The notes beneath the pieces are model-generated. The model was not told the origin of the DNA and did not search any database. It saw only the letters and a list, made by a program, of their open reading frames with translations. From Acidobacteriota bacterium (GTDB lineage Bacteria > Acidobacteriota > Terriglobia > UBA7540): a stretch of 64,000 bases of DNA. The stretch is from contig SCRD01000017.1 in the NCBI GenBank assembly GCA_004298155.1, positions 310,001 to 374,000 of the forward strand, in the 5' to 3' direction. The position numbers were made by a program, and so were the translations under genes. Position 1 is the stretch's first letter; each line of letters begins with the position of its first letter. Shown here piece by piece: positions 16,711 to 38,920 of the stretch.

Positions 16711-17181
16711 ATGCGAATCGCCATCGGCGCTGATCACGCCGGATTTACGATGAAGGAAGAACTTGCCGCCGAGGTCCGCAAGCTCGGGCACGACCTCCTC
16801 GACGTGGGAGCGCACCGCTCCGATCCATCCGACGACTATCCCGATTTTGCGGAGGCGGTCGGCATGGCCATCATTGAGGGCAAGGCAGAACGCGGCGTGC
16901 TGATTTGCGGCAGCGGCGTCGGGGTCTCCGTGGCTGCCAACAAGATGCCCGGAATTCGCGCGGCCGTCTGCCACGACGCCTATTCGGCCCACCAGGGAGT
17001 GGAGCACGACAATATGAATGTGCTGGTGCTCGGCAGCCGCATCATCGGCGCGGAACTGGCCCGCGAACTCGTTCGAACCTACCTTGCTGCCCGGTTCACG
17101 AATGAAGAACGCCACCGCCGCCGTCTAGCAAAGGTAGACAACATCGAACGCCGCTACCTCGCTTCTAAATCCACCCCTTAA
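16711..17181 (+). CDS. rpiB: Ribose-5-phosphate isomerase B
   Basis: A 156-residue enzyme of the RpiB/LacAB family that interconverts ribose 5-phosphate and ribulose 5-phosphate in the pentose phosphate pathway. The N-terminal IGADHAGFTMK carries the phosphate-binding and ring-opening residues. GVLICGSGVGVSVAANK carries the catalytic Cys and anion hole, and HDAYSAHQGVEHDNMNVLVL completes the active site. AAAGGAA precedes the ATG. A diverged copy of its last 55 or so nucleotides recurs at 18314-18369, beyond the MerR/glutaredoxin pair. Confidence 0.95.
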   Translation: MRIAIGADHAGFTMKEELAAEVRKLGHDLLDVGAHRSDPSDDYPDFAEAVGMAIIEGKAERGVLICGSGVGVSVAANKMPGIRAAVCHDAYSAHQGVEHDNMNVLVLGSRIIGAELARELVRTYLAARFTNEERHRRRLAKVDNIERRYLASKSTP

Positions 17182-17360: not shown

Positions 17361-17392
17361 TTGACACTAGAGTCAACTCGAGGGTTTATCCT
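17361..17392 (+). promoter_or_regulatory. MerR-type promoter/operator
   Basis: TTGACA (17361-17366) and TATCCT (17387-17392) are 20 bp apart, longer than a normal sigma70 spacer and the hallmark of promoters that MerR proteins untwist. Inside the spacer region lies a dyad, ACACTAGAGT (17364-17373) and ACTCGAGGGT (17376-17385), matching in 8 of 10 positions. It drives the MerR gene itself and probably the glutaredoxin gene behind it. Confidence 0.75.
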
Positions 17393-17418: not shown

Positions 17419-17847
17419 ATGGGTCGGGAGGCAATTTTTATTGGAGAAGTCTCACGGAAGACCGGCCTGAGCATCCACACGATCCGCTTCTATGAAGCAG
17501 AGGGTCTTTTGCCGGAAGCGTCCCGGACAGAATCAGGGTACCGTCTCTTCTCTTCACAGGCTGTTGAGCAGCTCCAGTTTATTCAAAAAGCGCAGGCGCT
17601 CGGCTTCGCGCTCGACGAGATCCGGGAACTGCTGGTTTTGCGAGACCGCGACACAGATGCTTGTTCAATTACCAAGTCGCTGGTGGAAGAGAAACTTGCA
17701 AACATTCGGGCAAAGATCGAGGCGCTGGCGGCGCTGGAAGTGGAACTGAAGGGAGTTCTCGTTGATTGCGGACGGCAGTTGAGGCGCCACCCTCGTGGCG
17801 GCACAGGGCGCTGCCCGGTATTGGCAAGAGCCGCCCGAAACGAGTAG
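17419..17847 (+). CDS. MerR-family metal-responsive transcriptional regulator
   Basis: The 142-residue protein begins with the MerR winged helix (IFIGEVSRKTGLSIHTIRFY, then EAEGLL and GYRLFSSQAVEQLQFI), followed by a long dimerisation helix (about 85-115). Cysteines are at 82, 117 and 132; in mercury-type MerR the ligands are at 82, 117 and 126, so soft-metal sensing (Hg, Zn, Cd, Pb or similar) is likely. No transporter or reductase gene lies beside it. The only downstream partner is the UGA-containing glutaredoxin 130 bp away. It is autoregulated if the 20-bp-spacer promoter upstream is used. The inducer cannot be told from sequence. Confidence 0.88.
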   Translation: MGREAIFIGEVSRKTGLSIHTIRFYEAEGLLPEASRTESGYRLFSSQAVEQLQFIQKAQALGFALDEIRELLVLRDRDTDACSITKSLVEEKLANIRAKIEALAALEVELKGVLVDCGRQLRRHPRGGTGRCPVLARAARNE

Positions 17848-17977
17848 CTCATGGCCTGGCGGCCCCGGCCATCAAGAATTGGCTGCTGAATGACGACGCC
17901 GGGCAAAGGAAGACCCAGATACGTTTATTCATCACGGCCTGCACGAACCGTTTGGATATACCGTTCAAAGGAGCCTG

Positions 17978-18214
17978 ATGGCTAAGAAGGTAGTTCTATT
18001 CACTCAACCGGGCTGAATGTTCTGTAAACGGACGAAAGAGTTTCTTTCGCGGAACGGCGTCACGTTTGAAGAGCGTGATGTGACCAGCGACCAAACGGCC
18101 CTGGACGAACTCGAGAAGCGGGGCCTGATGACCACCCCAGTCACCCTGGTTGATGATGAAGTGGTCATAGGTTTCGACAGTGCGAAGCTCACCAAGTTGC
18201 TGGGCCTTGTTTAG
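17978..18214 (+). CDS. Glutaredoxin-like protein with predicted selenocysteine (UxxC)
   Basis: A 78-codon frame with a perfect AAAGGAG ribosome site four nucleotides before the ATG. Codon 13 (18014-18016) is TGA. Read as selenocysteine, the N-terminus becomes KKVVLFTQPG-U-MFCKRTKEFL, placing U13 and C16 exactly where glutaredoxins and NrdH have CxxC. The rest of the fold is intact: FEERDVTSD, the cis-proline loop MTTPVTLVDDEVVIGF and a C-terminal helix. A hairpin right after the UGA fits a bacterial SECIS, and selA is present at 37376-38773. It would act as a cytoplasmic thiol/selenol reductase under MerR control. Alternatives: a single TGC-to-TGA mutation (pseudogene) or an assembly error; conservation downstream argues against old decay. 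Confidence 0.75.
18014..18049 (+). promoter_or_regulatory. Candidate bacterial SECIS element after the in-frame UGA
   Basis: The UGA at 18014-18016 is followed after 16 nt by the stem CGAAAGA (18033-18039) pairing with UCUUUCG (18043-18049) around the loop GUU (18040-18042). The loop lies 24-26 nt after the UGA and begins with G, which fits what is known of bacterial SECIS elements bound by SelB. The stem overlaps the codons for a conserved TKEFLS stretch, so part of the pairing could be coincidence. Confidence 0.65.
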
Positions 18215-18513
18215 CAGGTTCCGCGTCAGGTGCTCGCCATTATGGTGGGAGAACGAGCGCCTGTATTCAGCAAAATGGTGCCAGCTCGAAACTGGGCGAC
18301 CTTCACTAACGTTCCGCCGTCTGGCAAAGGTGGACAAAATCGAATGCCGTGCTGCATCGCCTCCAAATCAGATTCTTCAAAGTAGCGTGGCGGACGATGC
18401 CGCGTCGCTACGCCAGACGCGGGTTCACACAGGCCTCTGCAAGTTTTAGCTACCCCATCCAGAACTTGATCTCCCGTAGATTTGCTCCCTGGGTTTACCG
18501 CTCCTGCTACATG
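18215..18513. other. Gene-poor stretch with rpiB relic
   Basis: About 300 bp without an intact gene. The only recognisable content is the decayed copy of the rpiB 3' end at 18314-18369. No promoter or terminator is evident. Confidence 0.5.
18314..18369 (+). pseudogene. Decayed duplicate of the rpiB 3' end
   Basis: The first 36 nt of this segment match 17118-17153 at 32 positions, and after a small indel a further 13 nt match at 11 positions. In one frame it gives RRLAKVDKIE, against RRLAKVDNIE at the end of RpiB. In another frame just upstream, WATFTN recalls RFTN of RpiB, indicating frameshift decay. Together with intact rpiB it brackets the MerR/glutaredoxin pair. Confidence 0.7.
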
Positions 18514-27560: not shown

Positions 27561-28493
27561 TTACTTCGCGTGCGAACTTTCAGCCAGGAACTTTTCAGCG
27601 TCCATTGCTGCCATGCAGCCCGTGCCTGCTGCCGTCACTGCCTGCCGGTAGATGTGGTCGCGGCAGTCGCCGGCTGCAAAAACGCCTGGGACGTTCGTGT
27701 GTGAACCATCATGCGTCACCAGGTAGCCCACGTCGTTCATTTCAAGCTGGCCCTTAAAAAGCCCGGTGTTGGGGGAATGCCCAATGGCAATGAAGACGCC
27801 GTGAACATCTCTGACCGCTTCTTCTCCCGTTTCGACGTTTTTCAACCGGACGCCTGTCACTTCGCCCCTGGCAGGGTCGAGCACATCGGTCACCACCGTG
27901 TTCCAGACGGGATTGATGATCTTGTTGTCGAACATGCGTTTCTGCATGATCTTTGAGGCACGCAGTTGGCCGCGCCGGTGCACCACGGTTACCTGCTTTG
28001 CATAACGCGTAAGAAACAGCGCGTCCTCTGCCGCAGTGTCCCCGCCGCCGACCACCACTACGTCCTTGCCGCGGTAGAAGTAACCATCACAGGTGGCGCA
28101 GGTTGAAACACCGTGGCCCAGCAGCTTGCGCTCGGATTCAAGGCCCAGCAGCTTGGCCGAGGCGCCCGTTGCCACAATCAGAGCCTGCGTTTCGATCGTT
28201 TCCTTGTCCACGTCCAGTGAAAAGGGGCGCCTTGAAAGATCGGCGCGGGTGACCTGCCCTTCCCGGCATTCCGCACCGAACTCCTCCGCCTGCTTTTGCA
28301 TCAGTTCAATCAGCTCGGGCCCCTGGACACCTTTGGGGAAACCGGGATAATTTTCAACCAGTGTGGTGAGCGTGAGCTGGCCTCCAGCCTCATGCCCGCG
28401 AACCACCAGAGGATTCAGATTGGCGCGGCCGGCGTAGATTGCCGCCGTCAGTCCCGCGCAACCCGACCCGATAATCACAACATTTCGCACCAT
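27561..28493 (-). CDS. trxB: Thioredoxin reductase
   Basis: A 310-residue NADPH-dependent flavoenzyme. Motifs in order are FAD-binding IIGSGCAGLTAAIYAGRA, the redox centre STCATCDGYFYRG (CATC), NADPH-binding VVVVGGGDTAAEDALFLTR and the C-terminal FAD motif GVFAAGDCRDHIYRQAV. Length and order are typical of the low-molecular-weight type. It would reduce thioredoxin and possibly glutaredoxin-like proteins such as the UxxC protein at 17978. Its start has AAGGAA upstream. No thioredoxin gene adjoins it. Confidence 0.95.
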   Translation of the reverse strand: MVRNVVIIGSGCAGLTAAIYAGRANLNPLVVRGHEAGGQLTLTTLVENYPGFPKGVQGPELIELMQKQAEEFGAECREGQVTRADLSRRPFSLDVDKETIETQALIVATGASAKLLGLESERKLLGHGVSTCATCDGYFYRGKDVVVVGGGDTAAEDALFLTRYAKQVTVVHRRGQLRASKIMQKRMFDNKIINPVWNTVVTDVLDPARGEVTGVRLKNVETGEEAVRDVHGVFIAIGHSPNTGLFKGQLEMNDVGYLVTHDGSHTNVPGVFAAGDCRDHIYRQAVTAAGTGCMAAMDAEKFLAESSHAK

Positions 28494-30904: not shown

Positions 30905-31981
30905 TCAGCGCCTGAGGCAGCAGACTCCCGGCGGGATCGGAGAGCCGTGCGGGCAGGTCTGGGGGTGTTTGAGGAAGACGCAGAGCTTTTCGGTGACTTC
31001 CGTGCTCAGGCTGTGTTCAATCTTGCAGGCATTTTCATCCAGCAGATCTTCGTGGATCTGGAACATCTCGTAAAACAGCCGCTCGGAAAGCCGGTGGCGG
31101 CGGATCACCTCATTGGCTCGCCGCCGGCCCTGGGCGGTGAATGAAATCATGTCATCCGGGTCAAGTCGCACCAGCTCTTCCTGGGCCATCAGCAGGAAAG
31201 TGGCACGGTTCTGGGTAAACTCCGGAAGGGCGGAAGAGCGGAAAACCTCCTTGCCCGAATCTTCTTCGTAGTGCCAGACGGCTTTAAGAAGGTTTTCGAT
31301 CAGCTCCTGCTCGTAAGCCGGGAAGACCGAAACCTCCGTGAGCTTTCCATGATGGAGCTCGATGCGGCGCTCTGCCATGCGGCCGATTTCAGGGTCGTGC
31401 GTTACCATCACGATGGTGTGGCCCTCGCGATGCAGCTCAGTGAAAAGGCCCATCACCAGCGTTTCGTTCACTTCATCCAGATTTCCGGTGGGTTCGTCGG
31501 CAAGAATCAAATTGGGCTGGTTGATAAGCGCCCGCGCCACGCAAACTCGCTGCTGTTCGCCGCCGGACAACTGCGAGGGCAGGTGATGAATCCGGTCGCT
31601 CAGTCCCACCCGCACCAGCGCTTCGCGTGCCTCCGATTCTTCCGCCATGCTGTGGAAATATTGCGCCAGCATCACGTTTTCAACCGCCGTAAGGTAAGGT
31701 ACCAGATGGAATTGCTGGAAGACGAAGCCGATCTTTTCGGCGCGGAAACGGGCGAGATCGGCAGAAGAAAGCTTGCCGACTTCTTCGCCGCCTACCCGAA
31801 TTGAACCCCCGCTCGGCGAATCGAGTCCGCCAAGGATGTTCATCAGGGTGCTCTTGCCCGATCCAGAAGGGCCCATCACGGCGATCCACTCTCCCTTGTC
31901 TACGGAGAAAGAAACCTCCCTCAGGGCTGCGACGGACGCGCCGTATCGCCGGGTCAGATTTTCAACTTCAATAAAAGCCAA
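30905..31981 (-). CDS. ABC transporter ATPase fused to a DtxR-type metal-sensing domain
   Basis: Residues 1-220 are a LolD/MacB-type ATPase: Walker A GPSGSGKST (37-45), signature LSGGEQQ (138-144), Walker B LILADEP (158-164) and H-loop VMVTHD. Residues 222-358 match a DtxR/IdeR regulator: a winged-helix-like ELIENLLKAVWHYEEDSG, wing SFTAQGRRRANEV, then HRLSERLFYEMF and ENACKIEHSLS, ending TCPHGSPIP. Metal-ligand equivalents H296, E300, C319, E322 and H323 are present; the equivalent of DtxR H98 is Asp. The start is probably TTG at 31981, 9 nt after AAAGGAG. It is last in the fur/FTR1 operon and follows the second permease by 4 bp. The domain may sense cytoplasmic Fe(II) and gate ATPase activity, or moonlight in DNA binding; both are inference. 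Confidence 0.88.
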   Translation of the reverse strand: MAFIEVENLTRRYGASVAALREVSFSVDKGEWIAVMGPSGSGKSTLMNILGGLDSPSGGSIRVGGEEVGKLSSADLARFRAEKIGFVFQQFHLVPYLTAVENVMLAQYFHSMAEESEAREALVRVGLSDRIHHLPSQLSGGEQQRVCVARALINQPNLILADEPTGNLDEVNETLVMGLFTELHREGHTIVMVTHDPEIGRMAERRIELHHGKLTEVSVFPAYEQELIENLLKAVWHYEEDSGKEVFRSSALPEFTQNRATFLLMAQEELVRLDPDDMISFTAQGRRRANEVIRRHRLSERLFYEMFQIHEDLLDENACKIEHSLSTEVTEKLCVFLKHPQTCPHGSPIPPGVCCLRR

Positions 31982-31985
31982 CGGA

Positions 31986-33212
31986 TTACTCTCCTTTAAG
32001 AGCGGTGGCTGGTTGAATGCGGCGCATGACACCGACAGGGAAGAATGTGGCCAGCGCCGCCAGCAGAATGGTGGCACTCCACACCAGCGGCAGCGTCCAC
32101 CACACAACGCCCAGGCTTACTCCAAAAAGCCGCATACCCACCTGGGCGGCTAGGAAACCGCCCACGGCAAACCCTGCAACTCCGGCCACCAGTCCCAGGC
32201 TTGCGCCTTCCATCAGGAACAGCCGGGTGACTTCCGGGTTGGTTGCACCCAGGGCTTTCATCACAGCGATATCTTTCCTCCGCTCCAGGACGATAGCGGT
32301 CATGGTGGCCATCACGCATAGAGCGATAATCGCCAGAATTAAGCCCATCAACGAAATCAAGAGTCCCCGGATCGTGTGCAGGACCTTTCCTTGAGAGTAC
32401 ACGATTTGGCGAATGGGCCGCACGTCAAGGTGGGGGAAAGCCGCTGCCATCTGACGAACGCCCCGGTCAATCTCAGTAGCCTGGCCCGGGATGTTCATGT
32501 GGATCACGCTGATTTTGCCTTCCAGGCCGCCCAGCTTCTGCAGTTCAGAGAGAGGAACAAAAACCTGGTCGTCTTCCGAGGAGCCGGTGGAAATCACGCG
32601 CACCACCTGAAAAATTTGGGAACCCGTTTCGCCCTGAGCGGCCCCGGCTGTTAATTTCACCGCGTCCCCAGGCTTCAGCTGGAAGCGCTGGGCAAGGTGT
32701 GTTCCCACGGCGCAAGAGCCCGGCCCAAGCGGACCGTCATCAGCTCCTGCTGTGACGCGCCAGCCCGGCACCAGGACCTTCAGAGCGCTGAAATCAGATC
32801 CTACGGCGACAATGTTCTCAAAGTCCGGCAGCCGGGGCCCCCCCGCCGGTACGCGTGAAATTCGCGTTACCAGGTAAAGCACCGGCGCGGCAACAAGCCC
32901 ATTCACCTTCGATCGAAGCGACTCCACTTGCTGGAAGGCTGCCCCGTCCATAAATCCACCTACTGCCGCCTGGCCGCCCGATGCCGCTCCTTTGCTGCTG
33001 AGAATGACATTGGCGCCGTAAGAGCGGAACTCCTGAGTCATCTTGCGGTGAACGTCGCTGTAAAGGTTGAGAAGCATTGACGCGAGGGAAGCTCCAACCA
33101 GCAGGGAAATCACTGCGAGAGCGGCCTGCGGGCGCCGCACCACCAGAGAGCGGACCCATAGCCTCCAGAAAAGCGAACGGCGCTTGCCGGTTTGTTCAGA
33201 TCTTTCACTCAC
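31986..33212 (-). CDS. FtsX/MacB-type ABC permease, second of the iron operon
   Basis: A 408-residue permease with one N-terminal helix (AALAVISLLVGASLASMLLN), a large periplasmic domain (about 55-280) and three C-terminal helices (LISLMGLILAIIALCVMATM, then LGLVAGVAGFAVGGFLAAQV, then VWSATILLAALATFFPVGVM). This is the four-helix MacB/FtsX architecture. It overlaps the first permease by 8 bp and runs into the ATPase gene. The coupling sequence ERRKDIAVMKALGATNPEV faces the ATPase. In related P19/FTR1 iron systems two such permeases accompany the FTR1 protein. Confidence 0.88.
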   Translation of the reverse strand: MSERSEQTGKRRSLFWRLWVRSLVVRRPQAALAVISLLVGASLASMLLNLYSDVHRKMTQEFRSYGANVILSSKGAASGGQAAVGGFMDGAAFQQVESLRSKVNGLVAAPVLYLVTRISRVPAGGPRLPDFENIVAVGSDFSALKVLVPGWRVTAGADDGPLGPGSCAVGTHLAQRFQLKPGDAVKLTAGAAQGETGSQIFQVVRVISTGSSEDDQVFVPLSELQKLGGLEGKISVIHMNIPGQATEIDRGVRQMAAAFPHLDVRPIRQIVYSQGKVLHTIRGLLISLMGLILAIIALCVMATMTAIVLERRKDIAVMKALGATNPEVTRLFLMEGASLGLVAGVAGFAVGGFLAAQVGMRLFGVSLGVVWWTLPLVWSATILLAALATFFPVGVMRRIQPATALKGE

Positions 33213-37375: not shown

Positions 37376-38773
37376 CTACGCAATCCGCTCAAACGCCTTA
37401 ATAATCGCAGATTCTTGTCCGTCAAACACTGTTCGCAGGTCGAGCAGCAACCGGTCCCGCTCCACGCGTGCGATGACGGGCGGTCGGTTCCGCCGGAGCG
37501 CCGCTTCCAGTTCCTGTGCGCCCAGTCTGTTGTGATGGACCGTAATCAGTTTCGCAGGCAACGACTGCCCGGGTGTCGAGCCCCCACCGACCACCGATTC
37601 GCCGTCTTCAATCCCCGCGGAGATGGAAGAAATTTCTACCAGTTTCGCAACAAGCGAAGCAGCGCGCGCGGCCAGCTCTTCGAGCGGCCGCCTCATCATT
37701 CGCAAGGCCGGGACGGCGTCAACGTTTCCGTCAAGATAAATCCGGACGGTTGCTTCGAGCGCCGCGATAGTCAGCTTGTCAACCCTCAGGGCGCGAAACA
37801 GGGGGTTCCTGCGGATACGGTCCAGGAACTCCCGTTTGCCGGTGATCAGGCCTGCCTGCGGCCCTCCCAGCAGCTTGTCCCCGCTAAAGGTCACTACGTC
37901 TGCGCCGTCCTTGAGACTCGCGGCCACCGGCGGCTCATCCTGAATGCCCAGCGGCCTGAGGTCCATGAGGCAACCGCTGCCGAGGTCTTCAATGAGGGGC
38001 AATTGATGCTGGCGGGCAACTTCGGCCAGTTCAGCAAGCTCCGGGCGTTCGGTAAACCCGACAACGCGAAAGTTGCTGGGGTGGACGCGCATCAGAGCTT
38101 TGGTGCTTTCATTGATGGCGTCGGCATAGTCGGCCAGCCGCGTCCGATTGGTAGTGCCAACTTCTTTCAGCCTGGCGCCACTTTTGGCGCAGATGTCCGG
38201 GATGCGGAATGACCCACCGATCTCTATCAGCTCCCCGCGTGAAACGATGACTTCTCCGCCCTCGGCAAGCGCGTTCAATGTGAGGAACACAGCGGCGGCA
38301 TTGTTATTCACCACCAGCGTCCTCTCAGCGCCCGTCAATTCCGCGAAGAGGCGGTCAGTGTGTGTGTCGCGCTTTCCGCGCCTTCCTTCGCCGAGGTCAT
38401 ATTCCAGGTTCGAATAACAGCCGGCGATTTCCTCGATGTGCTCCACCGCCTTGCGGGCCAGGGGCGCCCGGCCCAGATTGGTGTGAAGGACCACTCCTGT
38501 GGCATTGATGACGGGTTGGAGCGAGTATGCTGCCAGGTCCGTGGCGCCTACGACGATTTTTTCCTCTAGCTCAGCCAATGAGAATGCTGCGAGGGTTCCC
38601 TTCGTAATCCCTTCCCGCACGTCTTGCAGAACAGCCCTGGCAGCCTGCAGAACGATGCGGTGGCCGAGTTCCGCTTCAAGCCGCCTCAAATTCTGCCTGC
38701 CCAGCAGCTCATCGACGGAGGGAATCTGGCGCAGCAGTTCCGTCGCGGCGTTCGGATGGCTTTTGGTTTCCAT
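37376..38773 (-). CDS. selA: L-seryl-tRNA(Sec) selenium transferase
   Basis: The 465-residue PLP enzyme converts Ser-tRNA(Sec) to Sec-tRNA(Sec) using selenophosphate. The N-terminal RQIPSVDELLGRQNLRRLEA is the tRNA(Sec)-binding domain start; INATGVVLHTNLGRAPLA, VVNNNAAAVFLTLNALAEG and the PLP-lysine motif TFSGDKLLGGPQAGLI are diagnostic of SelA. Length matches the bacterial enzyme (about 460). I start at 38773 with GGAG upstream. selB, selC and selD are not in this window; selB often sits next to selA but here the neighbours are unrelated. Its presence implies that the genome encodes selenoproteins and supports reading the UGA at 18014 as selenocysteine. Confidence 0.94.
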   Translation of the reverse strand: METKSHPNAATELLRQIPSVDELLGRQNLRRLEAELGHRIVLQAARAVLQDVREGITKGTLAAFSLAELEEKIVVGATDLAAYSLQPVINATGVVLHTNLGRAPLARKAVEHIEEIAGCYSNLEYDLGEGRRGKRDTHTDRLFAELTGAERTLVVNNNAAAVFLTLNALAEGGEVIVSRGELIEIGGSFRIPDICAKSGARLKEVGTTNRTRLADYADAINESTKALMRVHPSNFRVVGFTERPELAELAEVARQHQLPLIEDLGSGCLMDLRPLGIQDEPPVAASLKDGADVVTFSGDKLLGGPQAGLITGKREFLDRIRRNPLFRALRVDKLTIAALEATVRIYLDGNVDAVPALRMMRRPLEELAARAASLVAKLVEISSISAGIEDGESVVGGGSTPGQSLPAKLITVHHNRLGAQELEAALRRNRPPVIARVERDRLLLDLRTVFDGQESAIIKAFERIA

Positions 38774-38920
38774 CAAGATTGCTCCCGTACCCACTGGCAA
38801 GGCGGTATAGCGGATTGACGCGCTTCATGATCATTTCAACACAAGAAGTGCAGGAGGGTCAACTTGTCTCGCCTCAAAGGGATGGCTGACGTACCGTTTC
38901 GTGGGCCTGGTGCTTTTGTC

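Follow-up and report, generated by a model that had tools for sequence, protein, structure and literature searches.

The bond of mercury to selenium is tighter than that to sulfur, and selenium is usually seen as mercury's victim. To our knowledge no classical mer operon includes a selenoprotein glutaredoxin, and we know of neither selenocysteine (Sec) nor a mer gene cluster for the Synechocystis glutaredoxin Grx1. Among the papers searched, none puts a selenoprotein glutaredoxin in a mer operon, though there may be an earlier mention elsewhere. In a 2021 survey of mer systems glutaredoxin is mentioned only for the control of MerA in Synechocystis (PMC8261052), where, as summarized there, a MerA-like enzyme that reduces Hg(II) is controlled or supported by Grx1 (Marteyn 2013, in PMC8261052). 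Sec has been recorded in a putative mercuric transport protein and in the UxxU metal-binding protein NF041115 (PMC13188914), and NCBIfam lists a MerT/CopZ fusion selenoprotein, NF045683. Among glutaredoxins, the UxxC kind with Sec appears in a 2026 review as one with experimental support (PMC13188914), and cGrx1 of Clostridium (Alkaliphilus) oremlandii (PDB 7c10, 7c12) is a native selenoprotein with Sec13 and Cys16 whose proposed substrate is the selenoprotein MsrA (PMC7642778).

The DNA analyzed here is a stretch of 64,000 nucleotides (the window) from the genome of a soil bacterium of the Acidobacteriota, in which a merR gene is followed by a gene for a predicted Sec glutaredoxin, grxU. The features referred to below are:

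17118..17153, plus strand: 3′ tail of rpiB, first copy of a direct repeat (repeat comparison)
17361..17392, plus strand: MerR-type promoter/operator of merR, with TTGACA, a 20-bp spacer holding the dyad CTAGAG..CTCGAG, and TATCCT (comparative)
17419..17847, plus strand: merR, metal-type MerR regulator of 142 aa with three conserved metal cysteines (Pfam MerR_1 and MerR-DNA-bind)
17967..17973, plus strand: ribosome binding site AAAGGAG (sequence)
17978..18214, plus strand: grxU, predicted selenocysteine glutaredoxin of 78 aa, U13-x-x-C16 (Pfam, comparative, AlphaFold2/PDB)
18014..18016, plus strand: UGA codon, predicted selenocysteine 13 (TGA in all Sec relatives, Cys in the rest)
C18033..G18049, plus strand: SECIS-type hairpin of 7 bp with apical loop GUU, 16 nt after the UGA (comparative)
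18314..18349, plus strand: degenerate rpiB tail after grxU, second repeat copy (89% of 36 nt)
27561..28493, minus strand: thioredoxin-reductase-like flavoprotein with a CATC motif (Pyr_redox_2, 173 bits)
37376..38800, minus strand: selA, selenocysteine synthase (PF03841, 478 bits; TIGR00474, 585 bits)

The grxU frame begins with ATG at 17978, contains a lone in-frame TGA at codon 13 and ends with TAG at 18214, and its translation reads MAKKVVLFTQPG-U-MFCKRTKEFLS.... Re-translation bore out the extent of the gene and the TGA at 18014-18016 as given in a sequence-only reading of this DNA, which had also called the ribosome site perfect (it is the strong AAAGGAG at 17967-17973) and had warned that with TGA taken as a stop a truncated protein would be called; the sole open reading frame is then indeed one of 65 aa, 18017-18214. 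That reading had further proposed that Sec at the TGA restores a glutaredoxin active site with an intact fold downstream, and both points stand. The active site is PG-U13-M-F-C16, the TTPV cis-proline loop lies at residues 52-55, and the score of 62.3 bits against Pfam Glutaredoxin (PF00462, gathering cut-off 22.9) together with the glutaredoxin fold places GrxU in that family. When the whole window is read through in six frames, no other frame gives a glutaredoxin match. There is no sign of decay in the frame, since 25 of the 43 nucleotide differences between the window grxU and the copy in a family member (G006) fall at third positions.

The AlphaFold2 model of GrxU (pLDDT 96.4) finds its best PDB match in cGrx1 (47% identity, rmsd 0.7 Å). 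Besides GSH-type cGrx, NrdH and BC3987 types are among the top matches, so the reductant may be glutathione or another donor. Because the closest solved structure is itself a selenoprotein glutaredoxin, GrxU is a known kind of protein, in keeping with the earlier remark that Sec proteins of the thioredoxin fold are known. Membership in the Uxx-star or YruB families of NCBIfam is ruled out by the curated scores: GrxU falls below the cut-offs of NF041212 (57.0 vs 66), NF041114 (25 vs 72), NF041211 (45 vs 100) and NF047338 (34 vs 97), and below that of YruB, TIGR02196 (71.2 vs 88.55 bits). The other Sec members tested are likewise under the cut-offs of the NCBIfam glutaredoxin models they matched.

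Codon 13 is almost certainly read as selenocysteine, given the conserved TGA, a covarying hairpin, the presence of selA, selB, selC and selD, and a Cys form in a genome that lacks SelB. About 67-68 loci, spread over some ten phyla (Acidobacteriota, Chloroflexota, Methylomirabilota, Rokuibacteriota, Binatota, Myxococcota, Armatimonadota and others), keep TGA at this position, as do 14 other genomes of the host's class, and Cys takes its place in about eleven loci that are more distant; the sequence-only reading had named precisely these two kinds of homolog as support to be looked for. Its selA was confirmed in the window at 37376-38800 on the minus strand, and selB, selC (tRNA-Sec, anticodon TCA) and selD, for which it had suggested a search, are all three present in the host genome. 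The host selD (G000:C17:121050-121973, L018) has an in-frame TGA in its active site, AAG-U-AAK, which makes SelD a selenoprotein too. SelB is full-scoring in 28 of the 30 genomes tested and has only one sub-threshold match in G006; G113, the sole genome of the 30 without any SelB candidate, carries the Cys form. A UGA conserved against Cys, a hairpin with a G in its loop and selA, selB, selC and selD in the genome are together what is expected of a bacterial selenoprotein.

The hairpin 16 nt after the UGA, with its GUU loop, was also correctly seen from the single sequence. Of 76 distinct Sec sequences, 74 have it, and across relatives it shows compensatory changes. Across 35 aligned sequences 94.6% of cells are paired and four of eight pairs have changed on both sides, a result equaled by 0 of 500 shuffles, and the probability of a stem of at least 7 bp under synonymous codons is 0.0076. 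The fold of the grxU hairpin region as a single sequence is unremarkable (z -0.6), so the case for the hairpin rests on comparison; a search of Rfam gave no match to a SECIS family. Most Cys homologs lack the hairpin. An exception is the Cys-type glutaredoxin of a Syntrophomonadaceae MAG (L142:6001-6228), which retains a full SECIS-like hairpin and perhaps represents a recent change from Sec to Cys. Some variation among the Sec genes is also worth recording. Two UPPC-type members (L061:4002-4238 and L063:9946-10185) have a differing hairpin further downstream, ACCTCTC-GGC-GAGAGGT, possibly a second SECIS form. Those of Armatimonadota/ANGP1 (L084, L089, L095, L096, L100, L101, L110 and L123) have the stem shifted by one base and a 4-nt loop, AGUU, which is a register change within one family. 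Three longer Sec glutaredoxins of 246-263 aa (L065:9022-9762, L070:9765-10505 and L068:7669-8460) have the same hairpin, and the C-terminal part of the first gives a weak match to the DinB superfamily.

Two other accounts of the TGA must be weighed. It could be a sequencing error or the stop of a pseudogene, leaving an ordinary or a dead Cys glutaredoxin, a general possibility with an assembly in contigs; the comparative data refute it, as about 68 loci in independent assemblies have TGA at the identical codon, the frame beyond it is intact with its excess of third-position changes, and the hairpin is conserved and covaries, so we regard this origin as having next to no probability. Some bacteria have unusual UGA-reading tRNAs, and on that precedent the codon might be decoded as another residue, such as Cys or Trp. 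Against this, the genome encodes the complete Sec machinery, including a canonical tRNA-Sec, as well as a Sec-containing SelD and a SECIS-type hairpin, and Trp is disfavored because homologs have Cys where the UGA aligns; decoding as anything but Sec is thus very improbable.

The regulator upstream is a MerR of the heavy-metal type, with a MerR DNA-binding domain, the metal cysteines and a promoter spacer in the 19-20 bp range. In the window merR and grxU are 130 nt apart with no terminator-like site found between them, and in G013 the ATG of the glutaredoxin gene directly follows the merR stop. Sec glutaredoxins occur in 3 of the 39 genomes of the host's family, and in all three carriers (the host, G006 and G013) merR lies directly upstream and has the same TTGAC-N21-TA promoter with a 20-bp spacer and a dyad. 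The element is also found at two mer operons of the host genome, and a backwards control pattern gave 0 matches. Ten such promoters all have the 20-bp spacer, and their pooled dyads exceed all 5000 shuffles; the dyad of the window promoter alone has P 0.11 against shuffles. The link to a MerR regulator, which the sequence-only reading had rightly singled out as looking new, is upheld by the three family carriers and their shared promoter, and the connection with mercury resistance goes beyond what had been said.

A direct repeat of 36 nt, its copies 89% identical and derived from the rpiB tail, brackets merR-grxU. The congeners G001 and G002 keep rpiB (84-86% DNA identity) and lack merR-grxU, and the unit may be an insertion at the end of rpiB; since congener synteny breaks directly after rpiB, the repeat does no more than suggest this. 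Plasmid relatives of GrxU among the records listed are distant, with <40% identity. Elsewhere in the window, an open reading frame on the minus strand (30905-32107) combines an ABC-transporter ATPase domain with the C-terminal domain by which DtxR-type iron repressors bind metal and dimerise, and it adjoins an FTR1 iron permease and FtsX/MacB-type permeases.

Within the host genome, two MerR paralogs have window-type operators and share the three metal cysteines with the window MerR. The C24 paralog, which heads merTP-merA, shares 62-63% identity with the window MerR and is the row closest to it by tree path, and the paralog on contig C8 heads merTP-merA-merB; both MerA proteins and the MerB score above curated cut-offs. 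The C24 merTP operator, TTGACTCTAGAGCGCACTCGAAGCTTTA, is nearly identical to the window operator, TTGACACTAGAGTCAACTCGAGGGTTTA. The window locus does not itself make up a mer operon, as only merR adjoins grxU and no mercury genes besides merR were found in the window.

In other phyla the neighbors include mer genes proper. A mer transporter, lyase or reductase gene adjoins grxU in the arrangements merR-grxU-merA (L103, Chloroflexota, merR apparently frameshifted), arsR-grxU-merA (L144), grxU-merA (L099), arsR-merB-merF-grxU (L115, Methylomirabilota), merTP-grxU with an 8-nt gap (L080, Acidobacteriota), and merTP with a MerB-like gene upstream of grxU (L120). MerT or MerTP lies near the Sec glutaredoxin gene in L083, L102, L104 and L114, and L138, L141 and L149 have merR directly upstream, each with a long-spacer promoter. 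Counted with purpose-built profiles, some of which drew on four of the scanned loci (L080, L103, L112 and L120), 23 of the 68 Sec loci have a mer-type gene no more than 2.5 kb away; none of the 11 Cys loci and none of the 64 controls (mostly 3 kb pieces) has one. Two apparent merA-linked loci, L095 and L134, score better as other FAD oxidoreductases, which leaves 21 of 68. Considering also that some merTP matches are weak and may be plain HMA domains, and that four loci fed the profiles, a safer count is about 15-21. On the glutaredoxin tree, built from no more than 78 aligned columns, loci with the mer label group together, but the label has to change about ten times. About two thirds of the Sec loci have no mer gene detected within 2.5 kb, so mercury is not the whole story for the family.

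We think it probable that merR-grxU is a two-gene metal-responsive unit in which GrxU acts in mercury and thiol repair, a model built from gene content and comparison. In this model MerR would bind a soft metal, Hg(II) or one like it, and activate its own long-spacer promoter, which by presumed cotranscription would also drive grxU. SelA, SelB, SelD and tRNA-Sec would insert Sec at UGA 13 with the help of the hairpin just after the codon. The selenol of Sec13 would then attack a disulfide or thiol-bound Hg(II), with Cys16 resolving the intermediate, so that GrxU strips Hg(II) from damaged protein thiols or re-reduces them, and freed Hg(II) could be handed to MerA encoded elsewhere in the genome. 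Re-reduction of GrxU might come from a thioredoxin-reductase-like enzyme, of which the flavoprotein at 27561-28493 is a possible example, or from a low-molecular-weight thiol.

That mercury in particular is the signal and the target seems likely from the MerR paralogs that head mer operons, the near-identical operators, the mer clusters elsewhere and the 23/68 count. The metal sensed could instead be Cd, Zn or Pb, because the window MerR scores higher as CadR/PbrR (108.6 bits) and as ZntR-type (103) than as MerR (96.8) and passes no NCBIfam cut-off. Its 96.8 bits against the mercury-specific TIGR02051 are well under the cut-off of 150.85, but the MerR that heads merTP-merA in the same genome also fails it with 108.6, so TIGR02051 does not cover this lineage. 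Those scores also suit a general Sec glutaredoxin under a metal- or thiol-stress MerR of the Cd/Zn/Pb/Cu type, one that would reduce the disulfides of MsrA, peroxiredoxin or ribonucleotide reductase and have no particular part in mercury handling; the many Sec loci without a nearby mer gene fit this as well, as does the description of cGrx1, the closest solved homolog, as an MsrA reductant (PMC7642778). We consider such a purely general role unlikely, though a serious competitor, in view of the nearest paralog at the head of merTP-merA with its nearly identical operator, and of a mer linkage that recurs in Acidobacteriota, Chloroflexota, Methylomirabilota and others, with about ten label changes. 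A mercury role thus remains our preferred reading of the window unit. More tentatively, and with rather less confidence than an even chance, the Sec glutaredoxins of several phyla may be an unrecognized component of mercury detoxification, a selenol carrier under MerR or ArsR control that would relieve protein thiols, and MerB, of Hg(II) or organomercury products and deliver these to MerA, exploiting the high affinity of selenium for mercury.

A selenoprotein that a mercury-type regulator switches on, and that lies inside mer operons of several phyla, would imply that bacteria put selenocysteine to use in handling mercury. A widespread family of selenoproteins, which lies under all curated NCBIfam cut-offs tested and whose members gene callers truncate at the UGA, would thereby gain a role open to direct testing.

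GrxU resembles cGrx1 in length class, in the positions of Sec13 and Cys16 and in fold, and differs from it in its active-site motif (UMFC as against UPxC) and in its pairing with a metal-type MerR, the portion of PMC7642778 drawn on here reporting no mercury or MerR link for cGrx1. The Uxx-star families (NF041212, NF041114, NF041211 and NF047338) and YruB (TIGR02196) are, like GrxU, glutaredoxin-like, and among the former are selenoproteins whose first active-site residue is U, but GrxU retains the resolving Cys and scores below their cut-offs. Like GrxU, the MerT-like, NF041115 and NF045683 proteins, which have to do with the transport or binding of mercury, contain Sec; those are transport or HMA domains, whereas GrxU is a glutaredoxin. 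The Synechocystis case, as far as it is summarized in the mer survey, is alike in that a glutaredoxin aids a MerA-like enzyme, but Grx1 is described there merely as a glutaredoxin and GrxU has Sec. With classical mer operons, in which merT/P/A/B stand under MerR, merR-grxU shares the regulator class and promoter geometry; mer clusters in other phyla include Sec glutaredoxin genes, and the window unit has merR only. The protein kind is thus already known, and what appears to be new is its context, the pairing with merR and the place in mer clusters.
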